In this document: positions 1 through 59,865 of the stretch, one piece after another | Numbering within the stretch: position 1 is the first letter of the stretch | How the letters are laid out: each line of letters opens with the position of its first letter | Assembly (NCBI RefSeq): GCF_900095305.1 | Contig: NZ_FMDO01000003.1 | Coordinates: 62,001-126,000, forward strand | DNA from: Proteiniborus sp. DW1 | GTDB taxonomy: Bacteria; Bacillota; Clostridia; Tissierellales; Proteiniboraceae | Length of the DNA: 64,000 bases | Direction of reading: 5' to 3' | Notes under the pieces: generated by a model | What the model saw: only the letters and a program-made list of their open reading frames with translations | The model's database searches: none | Told to the model about the DNA's origin: nothing | Position numbers and translations under genes: made by a program

Positions 1-710
1 TTATCAGTTGGAAGGAATAAGAAATCTATATCCTTAATCTTAGCATTTAATGCTGGTTCAAATTCTGTTGTATTTATAACTGGAATCTCTATTACTGTCA
101 TACCCAAATCTTTTGCTGCTTCCTTTGCCATATTAACCTGAAGCTGAGAATTAACTTCACTAGTGCTATATAGTACACCTACTTTACTTGCACTAGGGAT
201 TAATGTTTTTCCAAGCTCTAGCTGTTTAGCTATGGGACTAAGATCGCTAGTGCCTGTTACATTACCCTCTGGTGCATCGGCTTTTTTAACTAGTCCAGCA
301 TGTACAGGGTCGGTTACAGCAGTAAATAATACAGGGATATCCTTAGTAGAGTTATGTGCTGATTGTGCTGAAGGTGTGGAAATAGCAAGAATTAAGTCTT
401 TTTTCTGAGACACAAAATTCTGAGCAATAGTAGTTGTTAAAGCAATATCTCCTTGAGCAAACTGAGTGTCTAGCTTTAGATTTTTACCTTCTTCATAGCC
501 TTTTTCTTTCAAGGCATCAACAAAACCAGCCCTAGCATTATCTAATGCAGGGTGCTCTACTATTTGACTGATTCCTATAGATACTACTTTTTGAGAATCA
601 CTACTTGAATTGACAGGTGAACAAGCACCTAAAAATAAAGTGATAATTAAAAGAAATGAAATTAAGCCTAAGCTTTTACTTAGACTAGTGGGATGTTTTT
701 TTCCTACCAT
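1..710 (-). CDS. ABC transporter substrate-binding lipoprotein (TrpX-like), 3' end outside window
   Basis: The frame is open from an ATG at 710 to the window edge. It starts with a basic and hydrophobic signal peptide and a lipobox ending in Cys30 (LFLGACSP), so the product should be a membrane-anchored lipoprotein. The following sequence (VSIGISQIVEHPALDNARAG, then VLFTAVTDPVHAGLV) is typical of the ABC substrate-binding family that includes TrpX; the ligand cannot be told from sequence. A good ribosome site (GGAGGA) lies about 7 bases before the ATG. The gene lies downstream of hutP on the same strand, and its leader carries an unusual cluster of UAG triplets. The C-terminal part and any permease and ATPase partners lie beyond the left edge. 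Confidence 0.8.
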   Translation of the reverse strand, partial: MVGKKHPTSLSKSLGLISFLLIITLFLGACSPVNSSSDSQKVVSIGISQIVEHPALDNARAGFVDALKEKGYEEGKNLKLDTQFAQGDIALTTTIAQNFVSQKKDLILAISTPSAQSAHNSTKDIPVLFTAVTDPVHAGLVKKADAPEGNVTGTSDLSPIAKQLELGKTLIPSASKVGVLYSTSEVNSQLQVNMAKEAAKDLGMTVIEIPVINTTEFEPALNAKIKDIDFLFLPTD

Positions 711-45585: not shown

Positions 45586-46617
45586 ATGGAACAGAAGAAC
45601 AGGGGATATAGGCACCTAGCTGTTATGGCCATTATCCTGACTGGAATTACTGTATTCACACTAGCAATATACGATATTGTAACAAAGAAAGTTGATATTG
45701 TAGTTGATGGTAAAGAACTGTCAGTGAATACTAGTAAAAAAACTGTATCAGAAGTACTTAAAGAGAGAAACATATCGTTAGAGAAATGGGATGACATAAA
45801 TATACCTTTAGATAGTACCTTAGAAGATGAGATGAAAATAGAAATAAAAAGAGCAGTACCAGTATCCATTAATTACGGAGGCAACATCATAGAGCTAAAT
45901 ACAACAAAAAAGACTGTAAAAGAGCTGCTAGACTCACTAGATTTAGACTATAAGCAAGATAAAATAGAACCTTCACTTAAAGATAAGATTATATCTGGTA
46001 CAGAAATAAATATTGTAAGGGTAGACGAAAAAATAGAAACTATAAATGAATCAATACCATATGAAACAGTGACAAAAAGCAACACTGAATTAGACAAAGG
46101 AAAATCAATCACTGTACAGGATGGACAGGAAGGAATTAAGGAAATAAAGATTAAAAAGGTATATGAAAATGGAAGGCTTCAGGCTAAAGAAATTATTGAA
46201 GAAAAAATAGCCAAAGAACCAATTAGTAAAATCGTAGAAAAAGGAATAAAAGAAACTGGTTACACTATAGCTTCAAGGGGTACTTTTGCAGGAAAAAAAG
46301 AAATCATAATGATAGCTACAGCCTATGATTTGTCTTATGAAAGTACAGGAAAGAGACCAGGAGACAAATGGTATGGTCTTACTGCATCAGGAACTAAAGC
46401 AAGACCAGGTGTGGTAGCAGTAGACCCTAAGGTTATTCCTTTAGGTACCAAGCTTTACATTGAATCATTAGATGGCACACCTGACTATGGCCATGCAGTA
46501 GCAGAAGACACAGGAGGAGCTATAAAAGGAAATAAAATAGATCTTTTTATGGAAGATGCTAAAAAAGTAAAAGCGTTTGGTAGAAGAAAGGTTAAAGTTT
46601 ATATTTTAGGAAAATAG
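45586..46617 (+). CDS. yabE: YabE-type cell-wall protein: DUF348, G5 and 3D domains
   Basis: A 343-residue secreted or membrane-anchored protein. An N-terminal helix (residues 10-30) is followed by two DUF348 repeats (DIVVDGKELSVNTSKKTVSE; SINYGGNIIELNTTKKTVKE), a G5 domain (about 150-220), and a C-terminal 3D domain with aspartates in ATAYDLSYESTGKRPGDKWY, GVVAVDPKVIPLGTKLYIES and GNKIDLFMED. The 3D domain is the MltA/Rpf-like lytic fold acting on peptidoglycan. AGGAGGTTTCAAA precedes the ATG. In Bacillus yabE lies just before rnmV and ksgA, as here. Confidence 0.92.
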   Translation: MEQKNRGYRHLAVMAIILTGITVFTLAIYDIVTKKVDIVVDGKELSVNTSKKTVSEVLKERNISLEKWDDINIPLDSTLEDEMKIEIKRAVPVSINYGGNIIELNTTKKTVKELLDSLDLDYKQDKIEPSLKDKIISGTEINIVRVDEKIETINESIPYETVTKSNTELDKGKSITVQDGQEGIKEIKIKKVYENGRLQAKEIIEEKIAKEPISKIVEKGIKETGYTIASRGTFAGKKEIIMIATAYDLSYESTGKRPGDKWYGLTASGTKARPGVVAVDPKVIPLGTKLYIESLDGTPDYGHAVAEDTGGAIKGNKIDLFMEDAKKVKAFGRRKVKVYILGK

Positions 46618-51847: not shown

Positions 51848-51876
51848 TTGAAAAATATACCCCCACATGGTATAAT
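51848..51876 (+). promoter_or_regulatory. ccdA promoter with embedded CsoR/CstR-like palindrome
   Basis: TTGAAA (51848-51853) and TATAAT (51871-51876) are 17 apart. In the spacer TATACC (51856-51861) and GGTATA (51869-51874) form an inverted repeat rich in C then G, like the copper operators at 53348 and 56728. Confidence 0.55.
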
Positions 51877-51924: not shown

Positions 51925-52611
51925 ATGACTGATATTTCAATATCTGCATCCTTTGCTGCAGGATTATTATCTTTTTTTTCTCCTTGTGTACTTCCACTAA
52001 TACCTGCATATATAACATACATAACAGGGACTGCATTAGAGGAAGAATTGGAAAACAAAAGATTTCTTGCACTTACTAGGACTTTAGGCTTTGTACTAGG
52101 TTTTACAATTATTTTCATGGCAATGGGAGTGTCTGCTAGCTTTATTGGAAGACTATTTAGGGTATATAAAAGGCAGTTTTCAATGATTAGTGGTTTATTA
52201 ATAATTGGTTTAGGATTTAATATGATGGGTATTTTAAAATTAAATGTTCTTAATAAGGGAATAAGGTTTAAGCTGCCAAAGGCATCTAACTGGTTTAGTT
52301 CAGTTCTAGTAGGTATGGCATTTGCTGCTGGCTGGACTCCATGTGTTGGAGCTGTTTTAGGAACCATACTTTTACTTGCAGGAAATACAGGAACAGTATC
52401 ATCAGGTTTCTTTCTATTGCTGTTCTATTCATTAGGTCTTGCAATTCCATTTATTTTAACAGCATTGCTTATAAGCAGATTTGGAAGATTTCTAACTAAG
52501 TCTGAAAAGGTACTTCCCTATATAACGAAAATAGGAGGATTGATTATAGTGCTCCTTGGACTTTTGATTTTTTTCAATAAAATGCATTTATTAACGAATT
52601 TGCTTTTATAG
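51925..52611 (+). CDS. ccdA: CcdA-type thiol:disulfide transporter
   Basis: A 228-residue membrane protein with six helices that carries electrons from cytosolic thioredoxin across the membrane. The two half-signatures with catalytic Cys are FFSPCVLPLIPAYITYITG and AAGWTPCVGAVLGTILLLAG. AGAGGAGTG precedes the ATG. The next gene encodes its likely external partner. Confidence 0.93.
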   Translation: MTDISISASFAAGLLSFFSPCVLPLIPAYITYITGTALEEELENKRFLALTRTLGFVLGFTIIFMAMGVSASFIGRLFRVYKRQFSMISGLLIIGLGFNMMGILKLNVLNKGIRFKLPKASNWFSSVLVGMAFAAGWTPCVGAVLGTILLLAGNTGTVSSGFFLLLFYSLGLAIPFILTALLISRFGRFLTKSEKVLPYITKIGGLIIVLLGLLIFFNKMHLLTNLLL

Positions 52612-52631: not shown

Positions 52632-53222
52632 ATGAAAAATAAAAAAATAGTCATTATCATATCAGTCATTGTGGGCATTATAGCCTTATCCATAGGTATA
52701 GGATTTTTAGCAATTAGGCATTTAGAAAAAACTGCTATAAAGAAACAACAGGAAATTATTGAGGCTAGAGACGATGCAAATAAAATAAACTTTGATGATA
52801 TTATTGATGTAGGAGATTTTGCTCCAGATTTTACTTTACAAGATCTAGATGGAAATACAATATCTCTTGATGACTTTAAAGGTGAGAAGGTTGTGTTCTT
52901 AAATTTCTGGGCTACTTGGTGTCCACCATGTAGAGCAGAGATGCCTGATTTAGACAAGGTATATCAAGAAAGCAAAGGCGAAGATTTTATAGTTCTGGCC
53001 ATAAATTTGGGAGAATCTGAAAAAATAGTTAAAGAATTTATGGCAGAAAACGGATACAGCTTCCCAGTACTATTAGACAAAACTCAAAAAGTTGGATTTG
53101 CATACAATACATTTTCCATACCAACTTCTGTGCTAGTAGATAAAGAAGGGAAAGTTAGAGTCTATAGACCTGGAGCTATGACATACAATCAAATGATAGA
53201 AATGGTAGAAAGTATACAGTAA
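52632..53222 (+). CDS. TlpA/ResA-like membrane-anchored thioredoxin
   Basis: A 196-residue protein: N-terminal membrane anchor (residues 6-28), then a thioredoxin domain with WATWCPPCRAEMPD and the cis-Pro in NTFSIPTSVLVDKEGKVRVY. Receives electrons from CcdA and reduces extracytoplasmic disulfides, for example in cytochrome c or spore proteins. AGGAGGGTTTC precedes the ATG, 20 bases after ccdA. Confidence 0.92.
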   Translation: MKNKKIVIIISVIVGIIALSIGIGFLAIRHLEKTAIKKQQEIIEARDDANKINFDDIIDVGDFAPDFTLQDLDGNTISLDDFKGEKVVFLNFWATWCPPCRAEMPDLDKVYQESKGEDFIVLAINLGESEKIVKEFMAENGYSFPVLLDKTQKVGFAYNTFSIPTSVLVDKEGKVRVYRPGAMTYNQMIEMVESIQ

Positions 53223-53347
53223 TGAGAACCTTAAGCTTAATAACCAGTTAAAAAATATAATAATATTTGCATATATGAGTAAATTAAAGCAGGAATAAAT
53301 ATAAAATATTGACCCTAAACTAAATATGTAGTAAAATTTGTTTTATA

Positions 53348-53364
53348 ATACCCGTATGGGGTAT
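53348..53364 (+). promoter_or_regulatory. CsoR-type copper operator before the selenoprotein gene
   Basis: ATACCC-N5-GGGTAT perfect inverted repeat (ATACCCGTATGGGGTAT), similar to the copA operator at 56728-56741. Confidence 0.65.
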
Positions 53365-53397
53365 ATATAAAATAAGAAAACTATTAGGAGGGTTAAT

Positions 53398-53700
53398 ATG
53401 AATGTAAATGTAACAGAAAAGGCTCAACAAGAGATAAAAAGAATTATGGAGAAAAAAGGTTCAAATGGAAAGGATTTGAGAATATATATTGCAGGTGTTG
53501 GCTGAGGTGGCCCATCCTTTGGAATAGCTCTGGATGAGCAAAAAGAAAATGATGATGTAACAAGGATTGGTGAATATAATTATTTAGTTGATAAAGATCT
53601 TATAGAAACCTATGGGACATTTAATGTAGACTATACAAGTGACTGGCTAAGAAAAGGATTCAATATCGTACCAAATAGAGGCGGATCATCCTGTAGCTAA
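53398..53700 (+). CDS. HesB-like selenoprotein (in-frame UGA decoded as selenocysteine)
   Basis: ATG at 53398 behind AGGAGGG starts a 100-codon frame with one in-frame TGA at 53503-53505 (residue 36) and a TAA at 53698. The context AGVG-U-GGPSFGIALDE is the HesB/IscA-like core (usually GCGGPSFG), and the protein ends with the family-like GGSSCS. Reading through gives a full-length family member with no other defect. A stem-loop right after the TGA (53510-53539) fits a bacterial SECIS. HesB-like selenoproteins are known in clostridia. It may act in iron-sulfur or copper-related redox chemistry; role unknown. Confidence 0.85.
53510..53539 (+). promoter_or_regulatory. Candidate bacterial SECIS element
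   Basis: Four bases after the UGA, GCCCATCC pairs with GGATGAGC (one mismatch), loop of 14 with the G and U residues usual for SelB binding. The stem is also coding (GPSFGIALDE). Confidence 0.7.
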
Positions 53701-56630: not shown

Positions 56631-56727
56631 ATATTTTTTTGCATATGTTTTGTCATCTATATTTTCTAAAAATTTTTGGAAGGACTATTTACAAATCAAA
56701 ATTATAGTGTTACAATAAAAGCAACCT

Positions 56728-56741
56728 ACCCCATATGGGGT
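56728..56741 (+). promoter_or_regulatory. Copper operator of copA
   Basis: ACCCCATATGGGGT, a perfect 14-bp palindrome preceded by TT..CCT and followed by GGGGG, the TACCCC..GGGGTA type bound by CsoR. A second palindrome ACCTATACTAGGT lies at 56768-56780. Confidence 0.75.
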
Positions 56742-56800
56742 GGGGGCATAAAATAAGTTAGCCTAACCTATACTAGGTAAGGGATAAAGGAGTGAGAAGG

Positions 56801-59601: not shown

Positions 59602-59865
59602 ATGAATGAAGGCAGAAAAAAGGCTCTAAATCTTCTTAAAACCTCAAGAGGTCAAATTGATGGAATCATCAAAATGATAGAAGAAGAGAGATACTGTGTA
59701 GACATATCCAAGCAAATATTATCTGTATTAGGGCTACTGAAAAAAGCCAATTTAGAGATGCTAGATCAACATATAAAAAGTTGTGTAAAAGATGCTATTC
59801 TAGAAGGACATGGAGATGAAAAAATAGATGAAATAATAAACGTAATAGACAAATATGTGAAATAG
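59602..59865 (+). CDS. csoR: CsoR-family copper-sensing repressor
   Basis: An 87-residue all-helical DNA-binding protein (DUF156). The Cu+ ligand set is complete: Cys32 (RYCVDI), His57 and Cys61 (DQHIKSC), the C-H-C spacing of CsoR; CstR would have different residues. It also carries RGQIDGIIKMIEEERYC. Represses copper export in Cu absence, likely via the palindromes before copA, the selenoprotein and ccdA. Confidence 0.9.
   Translation: MNEGRKKALNLLKTSRGQIDGIIKMIEEERYCVDISKQILSVLGLLKKANLEMLDQHIKSCVKDAILEGHGDEKIDEIINVIDKYVK

Follow-up and report, generated by a model that had tools for sequence, protein, structure and literature searches.

A short UGA-interrupted reading frame of Proteiniborus sp. 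DW1, hesB-U, is almost certainly a working gene for a HesB-like selenoprotein, and a conserved operator makes it quite probable that this gene shares a regulon with glutaredoxin and ccdA genes. The gene lies in a stretch of 64,000 nucleotides, hereafter the window, to which the positions in Table 1 refer. The family itself is well known. HesB-like selenoproteins have been on record since at least 2005 (PMC1242214), represent one of 25 bacterial selenoprotein families (PMC1794560), are likewise established in PMC9312934 and PMC1914089, and are tabulated in PMC13188914. The member from M. maripaludis was identified by mutagenesis and 75Se labelling, and the function of these proteins has been called unclear (PMC11097638). 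Our analysis adds to this family a corrected SECIS element, a signature of Sec combined with a terminal Cys, and a CsoR-type operator common to Sec-hesB and thiol-redox genes. Both the signature and the operator are leads that may be new: the portions of the published TIGR01911 descriptions available to us mention no operator, regulon or terminal-Cys pattern, and titles and abstract openings, mostly from outside subscription papers, contain no account of such a CsoR-type regulon, which leaves an earlier description possible. The operator tying hesB-U to glutaredoxin and ccdA, together with the terminal Cys as the sole partner of Sec, turns the question of function into a testable one, namely by what CsoR-family protein the operator is bound, by what signal the genes are induced, and whether Sec36 and Cys99 become bonded.

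Table 1. Features of the hesB-U region and of linked genes in the window
Feature	Position	Strand	Basis
One-mismatch operator, 52 nt before ccdA	51858..51872		pattern search
YruB-like glutaredoxin (CPHC), copy without operator; operator present at the second copy (contig C14)	50604..50828	+	family profile, operator search
ccdA (DsbD_TM family), predicted regulon member	51925..52611	+	family profile, operator
ResA/TlpA-like thiol-disulfide oxidoreductase, directly 3' of ccdA	52632..53222	+	family profile
Sigma-70-like promoter TTGACC-17-TAAAAT	53309..53337	+	consensus, by itself not above chance for the region
CsoR type 2-like operator TACCCGTATGGGGTA	53349..53363		pattern search, matrix, leave-one-family-out
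Ribosome-binding site AGGAGGG of hesB-U	53386..53392	+	by eye
hesB-U, HesB-like selenoprotein gene, 100 residues including Sec36	53398..53700	+	translation, family profile
In-frame UGA, Sec36	53503..53505	+	translation, homologue comparison
Predicted SECIS hairpin GCUC-UGGAU-GAGC, 4-bp stem, 5-nt loop	53527..53539	+	conservation, compensatory changes, bSECIS model, folding
Codon of Cys99, the sole Cys codon of the protein	53692..53694	+	Cys retained in at least 90% of an alignment of 60 Sec homologues

Read through the UGA, the frame runs from MNVN to GVG, continues past UGA as codon 36 with GGPSFG, and ends in SSCS and a stop. Unless the UGA is recoded, the product ends after 35 residues, just as the first-pass annotation had expected ordinary gene callers to report. 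With the TIGR01911 family (HesB_rel_seleno, NCBIfam) the protein has in common its small IscA-like character and a Sec at the UxGP motif, but it passes the profile cut-off only narrowly (66.9 versus 66.35 bits, with Sec scored as Cys); scored from DNA including the stop, it reaches 64.2 bits and falls under it. The scores for NF038090 of NCBIfam (75 against a cut-off of 85) and PF01521 of Pfam (22.3 against a gathering threshold of 26.3) are also below threshold.

The genome (3.12 Mb, 99% complete) has everything that the first-pass annotation had proposed to look for, selA, selB, selC and selD: tRNA-Sec and the other three genes lie within about 8.5 kb of contig C42, and selD itself contains an in-frame TGA. 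The site occupied by Sec36 could be located in 128 fetched HesB-like copies, with UGA in 99 and Cys in 29; this count excludes two fragments of 18 residues and also locus L038, which has Arg at the site but is nevertheless among the 29 'C' proteins of the tail-Cys, tree and operator comparisons below. Across 199 genomes (our genome and 198 relatives), TIGR01911 matched in 121, in 33 of them over the cut-off, and selA was over its cut-off in 144. Among the 102 relatives whose HesB gene is flagged for UGA, selA is found in all but the 71% complete genome G059, and the HesB matches of G033 and G102, both lacking selA, are all free of stops. The corresponding table (101/1/42/54, 198 genomes) gives a Fisher p of about 1.5e-20, a value that overstates independence because it treats kindred genomes sharing ancestry as independent; G197, whose stop status is unlisted, was counted as having no UGA, and the TGA position was located in the fetched loci, the other genomes resting on the 'one TGA' flag of the profile match. 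The presence of UGA almost only alongside selA, with Cys in its place elsewhere, favors recoding. It also makes a stop in all relatives, which the first-pass annotation had taken as a sign against its own reading, an ill-posed yardstick: UGA does occupy the site in most gene-bearing relatives examined, yet almost only where selA is present.

In a tree of 121 proteins, the Sec and Cys labels change five times, four of these changes being forced by supported branches, whereas shuffled labels require 26 on average; the tree is built on a short alignment and leaves many forks unresolved. This exchange of Sec and Cys speaks against UGA being a true stop that leaves a pseudogene or a 35-residue peptide, as do the Sec machinery of the genome, the reading frame that relatives keep past the UGA and the conserved SECIS. 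The meaning of UGA in the standard code argues for such a stop, which we nonetheless regard as scarcely credible. The machinery, the UGA-or-Cys conservation, the SECIS and the TIGR01911 profile are the reasons why we assign hesB-U to the HesB-like selenoproteins. The first-pass annotation correctly called a known selenoprotein family, but chose the wrong hairpin for its SECIS.

The hairpin that very probably serves as the SECIS is the short one at 53527-53539. Numbered from the first base of the UGA, its 4-bp stem (+24..27/+33..36) is fully formed in 88 of 92 unique Sec segments versus 1 of 28 Cys segments, and synonymous recoding yielded a complete stem in a fraction of 0.107 on average (maximum 0.25 in 500 trials). 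The Leu codon within the hairpin is CTG in 83 of the 92 Sec segments; CTG makes up 3.4% of Leu codons in long open reading frames of the window. Compensatory changes are seen among 89 unique Sec sequences, with the +25/+35 pair being C-G in 83 and U-A in 5. At +23/+37 we found U-A in 40, G-C in 14, A-U in 7 and G-U in 6, so that these positions are paired in 75% of sequences versus 42% in shuffles (maximum 58% of 2000); the window itself has an A.A mismatch there and therefore a stem of four pairs. According to the published bSECIS model, the loop has 3-9 nt with G in one of its first two positions, and the spacing is 16-37 nt (PMC13188914). The short hairpin fits it, with a 5-nt loop, G second in the loop and a distance of 25 nt from UGA. 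The 25-nt stretch around the hairpin folds with a z of -2.75, and the region as a whole folds no more stably than expected by chance (z of -0.75, and -0.40 for 48 nt). Rfam model RF00031 was uninformative, as it matched in none of 14 control genomes.

The arms of the hairpin proposed in the first-pass annotation, GCCCATCC (53510-53517) and GGATGAGC (53532-53539), do exist and pair at seven of eight positions, and in the window sequence alone this structure is more stable than the short hairpin (-8.6 versus -5.8 kcal/mol). Its role as the SECIS did not hold up among relatives: among 89 unique Sec sequences, 84 have C.A as the third pair and no more than 53-75% form the four inner pairs, and a 14-nt loop starting 12 nt past UGA lies outside the bSECIS model. 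The corrected position matters because it designates the right stem for mutation.

The AlphaFold2 model of the protein, built with 60 Sec homologues, has a mean pLDDT of 90.4 and a pTM of 0.79, and places Sec36 between strands 27-35 and 38-45; the last ten residues are modeled with a mean pLDDT of 69. A Foldseek search with this model retrieved IscA/SufA structures, namely 1x0g (E 1.1e-6, TM 0.75 by query), 1r94 and 2d2a. In an alignment with IscA and related PDB entries, Sec36 falls on the GCSG-motif Cys; together with the Cys-bearing homologues, this bears out the first-pass statement that UGA takes the place of a usual Cys. Nine residues, A9, R28, Sec36, G38, P39, L45, D52, G87 and F88, are invariant over the 60 sequences. 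The C-terminal region shows a distinct pattern: among 92 unique Sec proteins, it contains one Cys in 72, none in 10, three in 9 and two in one. The single Cys is the last residue in 66 of those 72 proteins, the next to last in five, hesB-U included, and the third from last in one. The 29 non-Sec proteins have at least three Cys in their last 25 residues, except for L076 with two. As a marker of Sec-to-Cys replacement the number of tail Cys is weakened by the tree, in one part of which most of the non-Sec and three-Cys Sec tails are found. The second Sec-HesB protein of the same genome, encoded on contig C44, has no Cys at all. Since 10 of the 92 Sec proteins also lack a tail Cys, the chemistry of the family cannot depend solely on a Sec36-Cys99 pair, and the Cys-less paralogue shows that at least one role within the family is served by Sec without a Cys partner.

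A-type Fe-S carriers have three conserved Cys in a C-Xn-C-G-C arrangement. In hesB-U this ligand set is reduced to Sec36 and one C-terminal Cys. Thus, while IscA, SufA and ErpA have the fold and the position of Sec36 in common with hesB-U, they differ from it in having a C-x-C tail instead of a single C-terminal Cys, and hesB-U stays under the Pfam gathering threshold. In a rival reading, Sec-HesB would still be an A-type carrier of Fe-S clusters or iron, with Sec36 and the terminal Cys as ligands of, for example, a [2Fe-2S] cluster shared in a dimer. The IscA fold and the alignment of Sec36 with the motif Cys are compatible with this, and a search of the genome with PF01521 found no member, so that hesB-U might stand in for a missing carrier. 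(Across the 199 genomes, PF01521 has 92 matches, 49 over the cut-off, and most of the matches listed contain an in-frame TGA.) We nevertheless consider it unlikely, given the absence of the C-x-C tail in proteins having mostly one tail Cys or none, a predicted regulon that is one of thiol redox with no isc or suf gene among the members seen, and a disruption mutant of M. maripaludis in which nitrogen fixation was unimpaired (an unpublished observation quoted in PMC11097638). We infer from these sequence features that hesB-U is not a classical Fe-S carrier. Loss of the three-Cys set, a lone terminal Cys and an operator held in common with glutaredoxin and ccdA favor redox or metal chemistry over plain cluster transfer, and a selenol/thiol redox or soft-metal protein is what we, on balance, take hesB-U to be. 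A metal role would be chemically reasonable for Sec-HesB, since E. coli IscA binds copper under copper excess (PMC6495748). A metal-ligand role has also been suggested for the selenoproteins SaoC (Cys-Cys-COOH) and UXX-star, of which SaoC, by its name, resembles hesB-U in the C-terminal Cys; these are families distinct from the HesB-like one, and the likeness is one of description (PMC13188914).

The operator of hesB-U begins 11 nt past the -10 hexamer TAAAAT of a promoter-like site; by consensus, such sites are not above chance in the hesB region (5 versus 4.1 in shuffles). With at most one mismatch the operator occurs at two places in the window, at 53349 and 52 nt before ccdA, giving three strand matches where 0.30 are expected. 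A matrix trained on 36 strict sites upstream of Sec-hesB genes scored at least 10 bits in 64 of 91 unique Sec genes, the next score being 2.9 (one of the 92 Sec rows had too little upstream DNA), and in none of the 29 non-Sec genes, where the best score was 1.5. When each family in turn was left out of training, 54 of 67 Sec-hesB genes, from 13 of 17 families, still had a site of at least 11 bits. Including the training set, such sites precede 65 of 93 Sec-hesB genes, being missing in 28, and none of 11 Cys-hesB genes; these and the own-genome context counts did not cover loci L021-L038, nor five other loci, of which four duplicate contigs already in the set. A promoter pattern accompanies 43 of 54 sites, and in 34 of these 43 the operator begins 9-13 nt after the -10 box. 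Elsewhere in the window the matrix found a site of 12.1 bits within an unrelated aminopeptidase-like gene (23484) and another of 8.8 bits at 46265, indicating that single sites of this strength can arise by chance. The arrangement TACCC-N4-GGGGTA resembles type 2 CsoR operators (TAC-X9-GTA with two G/C tracts) in having nine bases between TAC and GTA (PMC3902906), but here the site stands before hesB-U, glutaredoxin and ccdA rather than before copA. In gut Firmicutes, the CsoR regulon has been described as csoR and copA (PMC4938975).

The neighborhoods of 117 loci (94 Sec and 23 non-Sec, with variable flanks of up to 6 kb) recurrently include a glutaredoxin, a phage_holin_4_2-type membrane protein, DUF1858, CcdA, a ResA/TlpA-like protein, ArsR and a copper-type P-ATPase, the families being named from the window copies. 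No phage relatives were found. Counting genes outside training with enough upstream DNA, an operator of at least 11 bits precedes 31 of 47 glutaredoxin genes (47 loci including a few contigs present twice) and 18 of 19 ccdA genes; among 2862 random 170-nt stretches, taken at a distance from the four redox genes, one had it. It is rare or absent before the remaining neighbors. The counts lend no support to the holin (0/41), DUF1858 (2/47) and FTHF ligase (0/13) neighbors as regulon members, or to ArsR (0/21) as a regulator acting on itself through an operator of this type; for ResA the count is 1/17. A copper link suggested by the proximity of copA, copZ and csoR was not upheld at the level of the regulon, with the operator before 0 of 17 copA homologues. 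In the whole genome the exact operator is present at three places, 42-49 nt (site center to start codon) upstream of hesB-U, the second YruB-like glutaredoxin and a NapH-like 4Fe-4S membrane protein. Of the places scoring at least 20 bits, four precede redox genes, one is in a CRISPR-like array (L163) and one in an intergenic stretch with no recognized gene (L174). Operators with one mismatch, with 22 strand matches versus 14 for a control pattern, are mostly uninformative.

The glutaredoxin homologue occurs in three arrangements: upstream of hesB by 0.7-4.1 kb, directly downstream (L057, L059 and L060), or downstream past an Fe-S-type gene (L051 of Maledivibacter and L061 of Candidatus Petromonas). 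In the latter two loci Sec-hesB, the Fe-S protein and glutaredoxin adjoin, and the Fe-S protein is distantly related to the NapH-like protein of our genome (E about 1e-12 to 1e-13). Some neighbors have an in-frame TGA at a redox Cys position and may be selenoproteins too, namely glutaredoxins with UPYC in L122, L125 and L131 and a DUF1858 protein with CVGUP in L133. The glutaredoxin proposed to recycle Sec-HesB would accordingly itself be a selenoprotein in some species.

As to the protein that binds the operator, Cu(I)-sensing CsoR proteins have a Cys-His-Cys set, and CstR lacks the His. The genome encodes two CsoR-family proteins (PF02583 matches on contig C38 and at 59602 of the window), both with Cys-His-Cys positions by eye; the RLxR motif, also assessed by eye, is present in the C38 protein and absent from that of the window. 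Neither of their loci has an operator of at least 8 bits, and autoregulation through this operator is therefore not evident for either. The RLxR motif is named in PMC3902906. The regulator is probably a member of the CsoR family, and we infer that the C38 protein may be the one. It could also be that the operator belongs to a CstR-like sensor of reactive sulfur and that Sec-HesB carries or reduces sulfane sulfur (persulfide): CsoR and CstR form one family in which CstR senses reactive sulfur (PMC10318464), and the partner genes encode thiol-disulfide proteins. The Cys-His-Cys positions of both candidates, which are those of the Cu(I) type, make this rather improbable, as does the failure of any rhodanese, sulfide:quinone reductase or sulfite exporter to turn up among operator-bearing genes in a survey made without name searches for these functions.

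Our best joint explanation, which we consider somewhat better than even, combines Sec36 inserted through the SECIS, a Sec36-Cys99 pair acting in redox, soft-metal or sulfur chemistry, and a CsoR-family regulon that includes glutaredoxin recycling. The SelABCD machinery of the genome would insert Sec36 at the UGA, directed by the hairpin GCUC-UGGAU-GAGC at 53527-53539. The selenol of Sec36, in a turn of the IscA-like fold, and the thiol of Cys99, near the flexible C-terminus, would form a redox or a soft-metal/sulfur-binding pair. A CsoR-family repressor sitting on the operator at 53349-53363, and released perhaps by Cu(I) or reactive sulfur, would jointly control hesB-U, ccdA-resA, glutaredoxin and the NapH-like membrane Fe-S protein. 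Glutaredoxin would reduce the oxidized Sec36-Cys99 bond, with electrons supplied via CcdA or the NapH-like protein. More tentatively, Sec-HesB may be the selenium-dependent effector of an undescribed CsoR/CstR-type regulon in anaerobic Clostridia-like bacteria, capturing Cu(I), another soft metal or sulfane sulfur, or repairing oxidized thiols, and being recycled by glutaredoxin.

Several further observations concern operator-like sites and other members of the family. Upstream of copA in the window (about 56727-56743) there is a CsoR-like pseudo-palindrome, TACCCCATATGGGGTGG, one base wider than the hesB-U operator; searched with a looser pattern, it appears in 1 of 20 copA rows listed, duplicates included, which is that of the window. 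In the CRISPR-like array of our own contig C11 (L163, about 1491-1525), a spacer, identified by eye, contains the operator-like TACCCTTATGGGGCA. The paralogue on contig C44 is a second HesB-like gene with an in-frame TGA (G000:C44:179619-179861; L138 1489-1767, minus strand), and has a hairpin, GGCTCTGGATGAGCC, 3' of the TGA at a similar offset. L135 contains three HesB-like genes, and L111, L118 and L058 two each, close together and all with an in-frame TGA, some being highly diverged. The tandem paralogues of L073 provide a natural SECIS contrast, with GCTTTAGATGAGC in the Cys copy (5003) and GCTCTGGATGAGC in the Sec copy (5409). Other Sec-HesB subfamilies, with USG, UCG, UAG or UNR at the Sec site, are represented in L142, L143, L145 and L146, several of which have GTTTC-GGA-GAAAC instead of the usual hairpin. 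Finally, in the records of L063 (Atribacterota) and L070 (Cloacimonadota), a HesB-like selenoprotein gene is found near a selA-like gene (cluster 75, named by eye).
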